From NCBI RefSeq assembly GCF_000336635.1, contig NZ_AOLY01000042.1:287136-351135 (forward strand): 64,000 nt of DNA, in the 5' to 3' direction. How positions within the stretch are numbered: the stretch's first letter is position 1; every line of letters starts with the position of its first letter. The DNA comes from Haloarcula japonica DSM 6131. GTDB lineage: Archaea; Halobacteriota; Halobacteria; Halobacteriales; Haloarculaceae. Of this stretch, positions 1-17,752 are shown one piece after another. The notes beneath the pieces were generated by a model that made no database searches, was not told the DNA's origin, and saw only the letters and a list, made by a program, of their open reading frames with translations. The position numbers and the translations under genes were made by a program.

Positions 1-1308
1 GAACATCGCGACGGTCTGACCGACCTCGTTGTACGTCGCCAGCGCCTGCCCGTTCCCCATCAGTGAATTGAACATCGCGCTGCCGCCGAACACCGACAGC
101 CAGAGCGTCGAGAACAGCGACGGAAGGAACAGGACGCCTAGGACGAACTCCCGGACGGACCGACCCTTCGAAATGCGTGCGATGAACATCCCGACGAACG
201 GCGACCACGCGATCCACCAGCCCCAGTAGAACACGGTCCAGGCGGTGGGGGTCCCGTTCGCCGCTTCGTTGAGCGTCCCGGTGAAGAACCCGAGTGCAAG
301 GATGTTCCCGAAGTACGCGCCGAGTCCCTCAACCCACGTCCCGAAGATGTACACCGTCGGGCCAACGATAACGAGGAACCCAAGCAGTGCGAACATCAGG
401 TAGAGATTGAGCGTACTCAGGCGCTTGACACCGCCGTCAAGCCCCGCCGCAACCGAGAGCGTCGCGATGAGCGTGATCCCGGCGATGAGGGCGACCTGTG
501 GCCAGGTCCCCGTCGGGACACTTACCGCACCGAGCATGTCACCGCCCACATAGGAGAGCCCTGTGTTGACTTGTGCAACACCGAGCCCCAGCGAAGTCGA
601 TAGCCCGAACAGCGTCGCGAACACCGTTACGAGGTCGATAATGTGGCCCGGCCAGCCGTAGATTCGCTCGCCCAGCAGTGGCCAGAATATCGACCGGAAG
701 GTAAGTGGGAGCCCGCGATTGAACGAGAAGAACGCGAGGCCAAGTCCCACCAGTCCGTACACCGCCCACGGATGGAAGCCCCAGTGGAAGAACGTCTGTG
801 CCATCGCGGCGGACGCTGCCGCACCGGTTCCGGCTTCAGCCCCGAAGAAACTCGGCGGGTTCTGGAAGTAGTACAGCGGTTCCGAGACGCTGAAGAACAT
901 GAGGCCGATGCCCATGCCGGCGCTGAACAGCATCGCCATCCAGGAAAAGTCGCTGAACTCCTTCTCGGCCTCGACGCCGCCGATTTTTATCTTGCCGTAC
1001 TTGCCGAACGCGAAGTACAGCAACGTGATGATGAACACGTTCACCGCCAGCAGGTAGAACCAGCCGAAGGTGTCCCCGATAGTGTTGAACAACCACGTGT
1101 ACGCTGAGGATGCCGTGTCACCCAGCAGTATCGTCACTGCGATGAACAGCGCAATGATCGCCAGCGCCACTGGGAATACAACCGGATGGATGTCGAATCC
1201 AGCCGCCTGAATGTTCGTATCACCGGGTTCGCGGTCGGACTCCGGGTGGAACAACTCGACCTGAAGCCCGTCCGACATATCGCCGGTTGGGTCGTCACTG
1301 TCTGCCAT
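1..1308 (-). CDS. BCCT-family betaine/choline/carnitine transporter (C-terminus cut by window edge)
   Basis: This is a sodium- or proton-coupled importer of quaternary ammonium osmolytes, in the cytoplasmic membrane. I translated it from ATG at 1306-1308; 436 codons are visible and the C-terminus lies beyond base 1. Many hydrophobic segments are present, and the BCCT signature WGWWIAWSPFVGMFIARISK lies near the window edge. A cytosolic acidic N-terminus (MADSDDPTGD) precedes the first membrane segment. It points away from the demethylation genes at 4.7-17 kb, but its family fits uptake of their likely substrate, glycine betaine or a relative. A long spacer precedes it. The exact substrate cannot be read from sequence. 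Confidence 0.93.
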   Translation of the reverse strand, partial: MADSDDPTGDMSDGLQVELFHPESDREPGDTNIQAAGFDIHPVVFPVALAIIALFIAVTILLGDTASSAYTWLFNTIGDTFGWFYLLAVNVFIITLLYFAFGKYGKIKIGGVEAEKEFSDFSWMAMLFSAGMGIGLMFFSVSEPLYYFQNPPSFFGAEAGTGAAASAAMAQTFFHWGFHPWAVYGLVGLGLAFFSFNRGLPLTFRSIFWPLLGERIYGWPGHIIDLVTVFATLFGLSTSLGLGVAQVNTGLSYVGGDMLGAVSVPTGTWPQVALIAGITLIATLSVAAGLDGGVKRLSTLNLYLMFALLGFLVIVGPTVYIFGTWVEGLGAYFGNILALGFFTGTLNEAANGTPTAWTVFYWGWWIAWSPFVGMFIARISKGRSVREFVLGVLFLPSLFSTLWLSVFGGSAMFNSLMGNGQALATYNEVGQTVAMF

Positions 1309-1720
1309 ACGTTACCCCTCTCAAACGCGGTACTGGTCTGTGGTGTCTCATTGTCGTAGTCGCGGTCTTGCTCTGTCGTGGTCCGTTGCCACCGTCATGC
1401 CAGCGACATCCCGGCGTAGTGCGTCTGCAGCGTTCGCATCCTGTTTGCCTCACTGTACTCGCTTGCGGGCACGGCGTGCCCACAGGACTATTGTCGATGT
1501 AGTTTATGTGCTACACAGTCTCATACATATGCAGTAATGCAACTCTAATAAAACTTCACCTTAGACACCAATAGATCACGGATTGAAGCGCTGTACTGCT
1601 GTGACTCAGCAAACATTTCTCCTATCTAATACATTGAGGTTTGCTGGGTGTCGACGAATGGTCGGTTGTCTCACGGCTTGATGGGTGCGTATTTATTTCG
1701 GAATCCCACTTACCATCAGT
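1309..1720. other. Intergenic region with BCCT 5' region and a 15-nt perfect hairpin
   Basis: No convincing gene is present. A perfect inverted repeat lies at 1467-1481 (GGGCAC, 3-nt loop, GTGCCC). Candidate TATA elements for the minus-strand BCCT gene are at 1503-1509 and 1545-1554 (read on the minus strand). If either is used, the mRNA would have an untranslated leader of roughly 170-215 nt, long for a haloarchaeon. The part from 1500 to 1680 is AT-rich. Confidence 0.5.
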
Positions 1721-1882
1721 ATGGCACGACTTCTGGCAACAGGGGCGGCTGCAGTGGCAGCACTGCTGATGGGCGTCGGCCTGGTCGGGATGACAATCGG
1801 CGACTTCCGGCTCGCAGGATTCAGTTTCCTCAGCGCCAGCCTGGTGATCTACATCCGTGAGACGCGACTGATAGACGCGTAG
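1721..1882 (+). CDS. Small two-segment membrane protein (53 aa)
   Basis: A short, very hydrophobic protein beginning MARLLATGAAAVAALLMG, with two likely membrane helices and an RETRL tail. I chose ATG 1721 because the upstream in-frame extension to 1685 is not hydrophobic in a protein-like way. It ends 6 nt before the stop codon of the convergent uspA-like gene. Small membrane proteins of this form are common in haloarchaea; I do not recognise a function. Confidence 0.65.
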   Translation: MARLLATGAAAVAALLMGVGLVGMTIGDFRLAGFSFLSASLVIYIRETRLIDA

Positions 1883-1888
1883 TGAGTG

Positions 1889-2332
1889 TCAAATGTCGTT
1901 GACACTCATCCGCTGACTGATGACTGGAACGCTCGACGTCCGGACCACTTTATCCGTTGTCCCACCGATCAGGTTCCCGAGTTTCCCGCGGAACGCCGAG
2001 CCCAGGACAATCGCGTCCATGCCTTCGTTTTCGGCGAACTCGACGATCTCCTCGCTGGGCGCACCGGTTTTGAAATGCGTCTCGTAGTCGACGCCGTGTT
2101 CATCAGCGATAGTCCCGAGGTTCGCCAGCACCTCCTCCCCATACTCCCGATACTCCTCACGCATCTCCTCCTCGTCATCTCTGAGTGCGAGTGCGCGCGG
2201 AGTGCCCGGCAGGTCGATTACGTACAATGCATGGACTGTCGCGTCGAGCGCAGCGGCGAGTTCGATGCCGTGTTCTGCCCCTCTCCGAGCCTCGTCGCTG
2301 CCGTCATACGGAACGAGTATATTATCGTACAT
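1889..2332 (-). CDS. Universal stress protein, UspA family
   Basis: A 147-aa cytosolic nucleotide-binding stress protein. It opens with the typical MYDNILVPYDGSDEARRG strand-loop and carries the C-terminal G-x2-G-x9-G(S/T)-type loop (LGSAFRGKLGNLIGGTTDKV) that binds ATP phosphates in this family. ATG 2332 is preferred over an upstream in-frame ATG at 2365 because the family N-terminus begins exactly here and a TATA box lies about 39 nt upstream (2368-2375). It is convergent with the 53-aa membrane protein. UspA proteins often sit beside transporters in haloarchaea, where they may tune them; that link is inference. Confidence 0.92.
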   Translation of the reverse strand: MYDNILVPYDGSDEARRGAEHGIELAAALDATVHALYVIDLPGTPRALALRDDEEEMREEYREYGEEVLANLGTIADEHGVDYETHFKTGAPSEEIVEFAENEGMDAIVLGSAFRGKLGNLIGGTTDKVVRTSSVPVISQRMSVNDI

Positions 2333-17017: not shown

Positions 17018-17040
17018 GCCTATGAAAGAAGATGTGAAAT

Positions 17041-17051
17041 ACTAATAAAAG
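17041..17051 (-). promoter_or_regulatory. TATA box of the DmdA-like gene
   Basis: CTTTTATTAGT on the minus strand, centred about 30 nt before ATG 17017. Confidence 0.5.
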
Positions 17052-17254
17052 ATATTGTTACTTGCTTCTGGGGTTTATATGCGGGGGAGACTTCGCTGGC
17101 AGTGACGATACTCTGAACCGTTGTTTAACAGCTCCAGACCATGAATATTCAGCAGAATACGGTATCGTGTTACTCGACTGAGACTGGTGGCTGTAGTACA
17201 AAACGACCGGCACGGAGCACGACCGAGCGGCCGCTGTGCCTGCTCGGACAGATA

Positions 17255-17752
17255 TCATTCCGAGTCACTGCTGGTTCGGGTGTATTTGACGATATCGAAG
17301 TCACTGTGTGTCGTTCGGTCCGTCTCAGTCCAGCACGACCAGTCGACTGTCGGGAACACGGTATCGCCATCGAAAGCCGCTGTTAGTTCGGTGAGGATTA
17401 GCTCGTCGGCCTGTGGGAGAAACTGCTTGTACACAGTAGCACCGCCGATGACGTACGCCGTAGATGCGTCACTATCGGCCGCTTCGGCCAACGCCGCCGT
17501 CGTCGAGGTGACAGCCGTGACGTTGTCGGGAAGTCGATGGGGCGTCGTGGTCAGAACAATGTTCAGTCGCTCCGGCAGCGGGCCACCAAGCTCACGCCGA
17601 ATACTCTCGAAGGTCCGCCGCCCCATAATCACCGGATGACCGATAGTCGTCTGTTTGAAATGTGTCAGATCCTCGGGAAACTGCCACGGAATGTCGCCGC
17701 CGGCACCGATCACTCCGTTTGCCGCGACGGCGGCGATCAGCGAGAGTTTCAT
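17255..17752 (-). CDS. Dihydrofolate reductase
   Basis: A 165-aa NADPH-dependent reductase of dihydrofolate to tetrahydrofolate. The N-terminus [20 protein letters not shown], tryptophan W23 in DIPWQFPED, the proton-donor acid D28, and [10 protein letters not shown] are all textbook DHFR features. I chose ATG 17752 because the strand-A sequence begins there; the upstream in-frame extension to 17878 is not DHFR-like. It keeps the THF pool reduced for the GcvT-type enzymes nearby. It precedes the DmdA-like gene on the same strand, with a 237-nt gap that holds the latter's promoter. Confidence 0.95.

Follow-up and report, generated by a model that had tools for sequence, protein, structure and literature searches.

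We analysed a 64,000-nucleotide stretch of the Haloarcula japonica DSM 6131 genome (hereafter, the window), which covers positions 287136-351135 of a 391 kb contig in a genome of 4.28 Mb. The contig is syntenic with the plasmids pNG700 of H. marismortui and pHH400 of H. hispanica. We lean, if only slightly, toward reading a gene cluster in this window as a megaplasmid-borne island for glycine betaine catabolism in Haloarcula. Two routes would serve the first demethylation, one through a Rieske oxygenase and the other through a DmdA-like methyltransferase paired with a methylenetetrahydrofolate reductase-like (MTHFR-like) protein. The resulting dimethylglycine (DMG) would then be converted to sarcosine, glycine, serine and pyruvate. 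Betaine ranks among the major osmolytes in hypersaline waters. That haloarchaea may feed on it has been proposed since 2011, but no first enzyme was named. Our comparison names two candidates for that enzyme and predicts which species use which. H. marismortui, which carries both modules, and H. hispanica, for which only the DmdA/MTHFR route is predicted, provide a clean contrast.

Genes were called by an open reading frame (ORF) scan and by Pfam and NCBIfam profile scans of the window, and key proteins were matched to sequences in the PDB. An earlier note on this DNA had listed a BCCT carrier, a Rieske oxygenase, two fusions of a D-amino acid oxidase-like (DAO) domain to GcvT, a DmdA-like GcvT protein, an MTHFR-like protein and DHFR. 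All of them are present and intact on the stretch that it named, and are listed here with the neighbouring dehydratase and small-protein genes:

1-1308, minus strand: BCCT1, betaine/choline/carnitine-family carrier (PF02028, 1e-139); the 3' part runs past the edge of the window (full gene C42:286830-288314, C42 being the contig)
3369-4616, minus strand: pyridoxal phosphate-dependent serine/threonine dehydratase, SDH (TIGR01127, 431 bits against a cut-off of 379)
4673-7234, minus strand: DAO-GcvT_A, DMG oxidase/dehydrogenase-type fusion (PDB 1PJ5, 1e-177)
7520-7900, minus strand: small protein with an HVO_B0008 C-terminal domain, adjoining the Rieske gene (PF25215, 4e-26)
7897-9036, minus strand: alpha subunit of a group V Rieske oxygenase (start probably at 9036, as in the H. 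marismortui annotation; longest ORF 7897-9087)
9184-11757, minus strand: DAO-GcvT_B, second DMG oxidase-type fusion (PDB 1PJ5, 1e-176)
14488-15348, plus strand: MTHFR-like protein (PF02219, 4e-15; PDB 7XG9, 8e-38, full length)
15641-17017, minus strand: DmdA-like GcvT-fold methyltransferase (PDB DmdA 3TFH, 4e-43)
17255-17752, minus strand: DHFR (PF00186, 5e-50; ORF extends to 17878)

A flavoenzyme can oxidise a tertiary amine but not a quaternary ammonium, which has no lone pair. Betaine therefore needs either an oxygenase or a nucleophilic attack on its methyl group. The substrates and reaction directions that we propose are predicted from sequence throughout. The BCCT carriers would import betaine. 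In the first route the Rieske oxygenase, fed by cellular ferredoxin, would hydroxylate an N-methyl group of betaine and release formaldehyde, which formaldehyde and formate dehydrogenases would oxidise. In the second, the DmdA-like protein would move the onium methyl of betaine directly to tetrahydrofolate (THF), giving DMG and 5-methyl-THF with neither O2 nor cobalamin, and the MTHFR-like flavoprotein would oxidise methyl-THF to methylene-THF. The precedent is DmdA, in which THF attacks a sulfonium methyl and the methyl-THF formed must be oxidised. The two DAO-GcvT fusions would then take DMG to sarcosine and sarcosine to glycine, with methylene-THF formed at each step. Serine hydroxymethyltransferase (SHMT) would combine glycine and methylene-THF into serine, for which we propose conversion by SDH to pyruvate and ammonia, and FolD and formate-THF ligase would carry surplus one-carbon units. 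The scheme of the earlier note left the DmdA-like and MTHFR-like proteins without a step; it listed the pair without explaining it, and the pair is not a known betaine demethylase. We tentatively assign the DmdA-like clade, in what is close to an even call, as a betaine:THF methyltransferase, that is, a cobalamin-free, oxygen-free and redox-neutral quaternary-ammonium N-demethylase coupled to an oxidative MTHFR. If true, the methyl donors of the GcvT/DmdA fold, so far sulfonium and aryl-ether compounds, would come to include quaternary ammonium compounds. The DmdA-like protein would also be a further betaine demethylation route beside those using Rieske oxygenases, BHMT and corrinoid proteins and, in the haloarchaea sampled, the commonest of them.

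The distribution of these genes was compared across a sample of 293 genomes of the order. The Rieske oxygenase is encoded in 44 genomes, the DmdA-like protein in 70, the MTHFR-like protein in 72 and a DAO-GcvT fusion in 98. MTHFR occurs in 70 of the 70 DmdA-like genomes, and the DmdA-like gene in 70 of the 72 MTHFR genomes (p 5e-66). MTHFR tracks the DmdA-like gene and not the Rieske gene, and there is a need for it only where the product is methyl-THF and not methylene-THF. Each module is tightly tied to DAO-GcvT: the fusion is found in 41 of the 44 Rieske genomes, and 96 of the 98 DAO-GcvT genomes carry a module (28 Rieske only, 55 DmdA/MTHFR only and 13 both). Over all genomes, Rieske and DmdA are independent of each other (odds ratio 1.4, p 0.34). 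The earlier note had proposed that the whole set converts betaine stepwise, through THF, to glycine. Stepwise N-demethylation fits the conserved partners and the catalytic residues of the fusions, but the independent distribution of the modules argues against one single set. Modules that are independent of each other, and each tied to DAO-GcvT, fit better with two parallel ways into the pathway. Given that the fusions would cover the second and third methyls and that the first step is vacant in 55 genomes, the DmdA-like/MTHFR pair is the candidate for it.

We considered BHMT or MTTB as a general alternative first enzyme and rejected both: BHMT was detected in none of the 58 DmdA-only genomes tested and none of the 42 Rieske genomes, and MTTB in 10 of the 58 and 1 of the 42. 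The PF02574 domain, which covers MetH-type methionine synthase and BHMT, was absent from all genomes tested. As in betaine demethylation by MtgB/MtgC and by BHMT, the betaine methyl would enter one-carbon metabolism; unlike in those systems, the BHMT domain is missing, MTTB is confined to a minority of genomes, and no corrinoid protein was seen in the window. Several haloarchaea have methyltransferase genes of the MTTB family (corrinoid-type, for trimethylamine/betaine) at a distance of 14-65 kb from the DmdA-like gene (genome, contig and position: G254 C10:279303, G250 C9:554596, G184 C1:948756, G024 C1:1989970, G245 C3:286767 and 337845).

The gene order of the island is conserved in other Haloarcula and partly in other genera and families of Halobacteria. 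Orthologues of the DmdA-like protein at 96-99% identity mark orthologous loci on Haloarcula plasmids and contigs, including pNG700 and pHH400. H. hispanica shows the same arrangement as the window except that it lacks the Rieske gene, the small partner gene and the HbpS-like gene; its DmdA-like gene is HAH_RS18290, its MTHFR gene HAH_RS18285 and its DAO-GcvT genes are HAH_RS18270 and HAH_RS18265. The DmdA-like and MTHFR genes lie within 10 kb of each other in 55 of 70 genomes, where about 0.5% would be expected for a random gene pair, and Rieske and DAO-GcvT genes do so in 34 of 40. This proximity, together with gene order kept across genera and families, indicates that the clustering is not due to chance. 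Rieske loci of other genera and families contain BCCT, SDH, DAO-GcvT, a monomeric sarcosine-oxidase-like gene (PDB MSOX, 1e-88), the Rieske gene, the small winged-helix-like protein and an HTH_10 regulator, and at times GlyA (SHMT) and RidA. This is the content expected for a predicted conversion of betaine to glycine, serine and pyruvate, and SDH adjoins DAO-GcvT in other genera too. DmdA-like loci contain MTHFR, FolD, formate-THF ligase (Fhs), FolC/P, PabAB, GlyA, SDH, BCCT and DAO-GcvT, and many of them have no Rieske gene. The DmdA/MTHFR locus is also carried by Natronococcus sp. A-GB7 and A-GB1 and Halostagnicola sp. A-GB9-2 (loci L201, L210 and L202, respectively). The "A-GB" in these names may refer to enrichment on glycine betaine; we found no paper on the strains.

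Both fusions match the DMG oxidase of Arthrobacter (1PJ5) across their whole length (E ~1e-177). Their Pfam domain order is DAO, FAO_M, GCV_T and GCV_T_C, as in DMG oxidase/dehydrogenase. The 47 sequences that we aligned were 44 haloarchaeal fusions taken from the loci, 1PJ5, and the two window copies, which were entered separately. The His of the HAxG motif, which we take to be the FAD-attaching residue, is invariant (47/47, both window copies included), as are H225, Y259, D552 of the THF site and E658; Y651 is nearly invariant. The role of the HAxG His is assigned by analogy with His91 of human DMGDH, to which FAD is attached (PMC5082570). The fusions are predicted to act on DMG and sarcosine, in line with their catalytic residues. 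Compared with the A. globiformis enzyme, of which all catalytic residues are kept, the proteins described here are archaeal and occur in two or three copies. In the fusion tree, A and B fall into separate clades; a third clade holds the single fusion of Rieske-only genomes, and a fourth a copy upstream of the window. This third H. japonica fusion (C42:275256-277730; plus strand 7937-10582 in locus L027) lies ~10 kb upstream of the window, near formate-THF ligase and FolC/FolP. It is divergent, with 39% identity to B, and carries GHAS, not HAPG, at the FAD-His motif. Besides the fusions and the DmdA-like protein, the genome encodes a separate GCV_T protein of ~400 amino acids at C9:165834.

The GcvT-fold protein was considered as DmdA, the demethylase of dimethylsulfoniopropionate (DMSP), and this was rejected. 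It scores 248 bits with the NCBIfam DmdA model NF009133, under the cut-off of 410, and the DMSP-contacting Trp of DmdA (W197) is replaced by Phe in 17 of 17 DmdA-like sequences. The folate-site and DMSP-contacting residues of DmdA are named in PMC7487153; W197 is W171 of the alignment there, matched by its spacing to E178/Y180. The folate-site Ser, Glu and Tyr are kept (S156, E238 and Y240 invariant). An AlphaFold model of the protein, made from a shallow alignment, has a predicted local distance difference test score (pLDDT) of 59.5. The MTHFR-like protein passes PF02219 (56 vs 24 bits) and belongs to a divergent branch that does not pass the NCBIfam MTHFR equivalog TIGR00676 (69 vs 294 bits). 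A passage in PMC3160333 puts MetF running oxidatively on record for Methylobacterium. The pairing of a GcvT-fold methyl transfer to THF with MTHFR recalls DmdA and MetF of SAR11 and roseobacters and the DmdA-related SAR11_1265, which adjoins metF in SAR11 (PMC3160333). The pair described here differs in the Trp to Phe replacement, in its setting among betaine genes and in forming an archaeal clade. We found nothing on LigM/MetF in PMC12366328. In an Agrococcus metagenome-assembled genome, for which contamination is possible, a DmdA-like gene (58% identical) comes immediately before a DAO-GcvT-type gene that is truncated where the contig ends. On Roseobacter plasmids (L241 and L242), a DmdA-like gene of 37-38% identity stands in an operon with OsmC, enoyl-CoA hydratase and acyl-CoA synthetase, unlike the haloarchaeal setting.

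The closest solved relatives of the Rieske protein are the carnitine monooxygenase CntA (8e-37) and then the stachydrine demethylase Stc2 (4e-26). It has the [2Fe-2S] ligands CxH...CxxH (CAHRG...CPYHMW), and alignment with CntA shows the 2-His-1-Asp iron site, the bridging Glu (CntA E205) and the CxxC pair (NYSECDHCHANH and EEDFELVE). The cluster ligands, triad, bridging Glu and CxxC pair are conserved across the haloarchaeal clade, and the last three define group V, the quaternary-ammonium Rieske oxygenases (PMC10952381). The position of CntA Y203 is Asn in GbcA/BmoA and Stc2, and Tyr there marks carnitine/choline oxygenases (PMC7948474). Our alignment has Asn in Stc2 and Tyr in every member of the haloarchaeal clade, which groups with CntA-like bacterial proteins and not with Stc2. 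With the NCBIfam GbcA model NF058607 the protein scores 143 bits, under the equivalog cut-off of 670. The identification as GbcA was rejected on this score and on Tyr in place of Asn; we classify the protein, by these residues, as a quaternary-ammonium (group V) oxygenase. The "GbcA/CntA-type" ligands of the earlier note thus hold at the level of group V, but GbcA-type was too specific, as the Tyr is that of CntA and no GbcB/CntB-type reductase accompanies the haloarchaeal Rieske gene. An FNR-type reductase domain (PF00175) was not found in 6 of the 10 Rieske genomes checked, H. marismortui included, and the only one in the H. japonica genome sits on another contig than the island. A cellular ferredoxin as electron donor, with no dedicated reductase, would be the simplest inference from these absences.

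The small HVO_B0008-domain gene follows the Rieske gene in nearly all loci. Its product is winged-helix-like by eye and probably DNA-binding. Homologues in loci L225, L204 and L233 have an N-terminal CxxC, a possible zinc finger, which is lost in the window copy. CntA and Stc2 share the iron ligands, bridging Glu and CxxC pair with the haloarchaeal enzyme, which has this small protein as its partner rather than a CntB-type reductase or an aldehyde dehydrogenase. Bacterial CntA-like loci bear a reductase and semialdehyde dehydrogenases; haloarchaeal Rieske loci do not, and neither betaine-aldehyde nor malic-semialdehyde dehydrogenase is a recurrent neighbour there. Some genomes have tandem Rieske pairs (L037, L156 and L163) in which one copy has diverged, with ~50-60% identity over the full length.

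Other readings of the same genes deserve weight. The Rieske protein alone may be the betaine demethylase, with the fusions finishing the conversion and the DmdA-like/MTHFR pair being a neighbour that serves another methylated compound. The tight linkage of Rieske to DAO-GcvT and the independence of the Rieske and DmdA distributions would fit this, but in the 55 DAO-GcvT genomes with DmdA/MTHFR and no Rieske the pair usually has DAO-GcvT close by, and in many cases SDH, BCCT and GlyA too. These genomes have no BHMT and mostly no MTTB, so the first step would be missing there, and we consider this reading unlikely. A slightly less likely reading takes the Rieske protein as group Va-like, with choline, carnitine or some other trimethylammonium compound as its substrate instead of betaine, so that DMG would be supplied solely by the DmdA route or taken up from the surroundings. 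The Tyr and the grouping with CntA-like proteins speak for it. Against it, 28 Rieske-only genomes have DAO-GcvT and no DmdA, Rieske genomes are without BHMT and almost without MTTB, and the aldehyde and semialdehyde dehydrogenases expected from bacterial CntA-like loci do not recur.

It is quite improbable, in our judgement, that the DmdA-like protein demethylates DMSP or another sulfonium, with MTHFR oxidising methyl-THF as in DMSP users and the carriers importing both kinds of onium osmolyte. SAR11 DmdA is its closest solved relative, a DmdA relative adjoins metF in SAR11, and BCCT carriers can import DMSP (PMC13270143); yet the model score and the Phe disagree with a DMSP demethylase. The recurrent neighbours identified are betaine and folate genes, and DmdB/C/D were not among them, although not every neighbour cluster was annotated. 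We give very little credence to MTHFR running in its usual direction, making methyl-THF for methionine synthesis in an incidental neighbourhood. The protein is annotated as MTHFR and the family normally reduces methylene-THF, but the gene is missing from 221 of the 293 genomes and almost never occurs without the DmdA-like gene, and the PF02574 domain was not found in the genomes tested.

Several points weigh against a betaine island with two entry routes. We know of no GcvT-family enzyme demonstrated to take a methyl group from a quaternary ammonium. At the residue by which carnitine/choline oxygenases are told from betaine oxygenases, the Rieske protein has Tyr and not Asn. The genomes are not phylogenetically independent, and the DmdA/MTHFR pair spans 9 families and 27 genera. 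Within DAO-GcvT genomes, Rieske and DmdA show a strong negative association (p 2e-12), which is at least partly built in by the conditioning (Berkson). As conditioning on DAO-GcvT creates it, we rejected mutual exclusion of the modules as proof of a shared function. A passage in Anderson et al. 2011 (PMC3102087) records no stimulation by betaine in H. walsbyi, a species with a DMG-oxidase-like gene.

The idea of this route in haloarchaea has partial antecedents. The same passage in Anderson et al. 2011 notes that DMG-oxidase genes adjoin BCCT genes in H. marismortui, H. walsbyi, H. volcanii and H. turkmenica, and suggests the use of betaine, DMG or sarcosine. Added here are the first demethylation step, the Rieske oxygenase and the DmdA/MTHFR pair, which that passage does not mention. 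Betaine was also suggested as a carbon source of Halococcus hamelinensis in a 2015 genome paper (PMC4325475). We found no paper naming a first betaine-demethylating enzyme of haloarchaea in a literature search that left subscription journals largely outside. The predicted pathway resembles the GbcAB/DMG dehydrogenase/sarcosine oxidase system of Pseudomonas and Chromohalobacter in its quaternary-ammonium Rieske oxygenase, in DMG and sarcosine oxidation and in the conversion of glycine to serine and pyruvate. It differs in that neither its score nor its residue at the Asn/Tyr position makes the oxygenase a GbcA, GbcB is lacking, the DAO-GcvT fusions would do both later steps, and DmdA/MTHFR would provide a second entry.

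The window also encodes the following:

1889-2365, minus strand: UspA (PF00582), which adjoins BCCT in many such loci
2552-2995, minus strand: HbpS/GlcG-like protein (PF03928, 5e-39), recurring in 7 loci
12127-13083, plus strand: AstE/AspA-like (DoeB-related) hydrolase (PF24827, 5e-29), a recurrent neighbour; start as in the H. marismortui annotation
13222-14409, plus strand: hypothetical protein of 395 amino acids with no Pfam or NCBIfam match, found in 19 loci and recurring beside MTHFR and beside pabB
18451-19104, minus strand: Bat-type HTH_10 regulator (PF04967, 2e-16); HTH_10 genes lie near most of these loci
37870-38763, minus strand: FolD (NF010764, 550 vs 477 bits)
39024-41161, plus strand: pabB and pabA-like pair, for p-aminobenzoate (pABA) in folate (TIGR01824, 408.6 vs 408.55 bits; trpG_papA, 203 vs 121)
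41182-43038, minus strand: BCCT2 (PF02028, 1e-135)
45648-50743, plus strand: formate dehydrogenase, NuoF-like beta and molybdopterin alpha subunits (alpha passes TIGR01591, 828 vs 666 bits)
53191-54354, minus strand: zinc alcohol dehydrogenase, a relative of glutathione-independent formaldehyde dehydrogenase (TIGR02819, 339 bits, under the cut-off of 637)

FolD and formate dehydrogenase, which the earlier note had placed elsewhere in the window, are both there; FolD and the formate dehydrogenase alpha subunit pass their cut-offs. The formaldehyde dehydrogenase that it also named corresponds to the zinc alcohol dehydrogenase, which by its score is a relative only. It had overlooked the pabBA-like pair, the second BCCT carrier and, just upstream of the window, the third DAO-GcvT, formate-THF ligase and a fused FolC/FolP gene. 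For BCCT1, the full-length H. marismortui orthologue has betaine_BCCT as its best NCBIfam match (517 bits, under the cut-off of 650). The chorismate-binding and glutamine amidotransferase (GATase) genes at 39024-41161 are PabBA-like, and PabBA pairs beside DmdA loci elsewhere suggest that pABA/folate supply is tied to the island. The AstE/DoeB-like hydrolase and the 395-amino-acid protein recur beside MTHFR across genera. A sugar-type ABC transporter operon at 24019-32530 also encodes a creatininase-family protein, a short-chain dehydrogenase/reductase and an enzyme of the enolase superfamily, and a second creatininase-family gene lies at 50983-52074, near the formate dehydrogenase.

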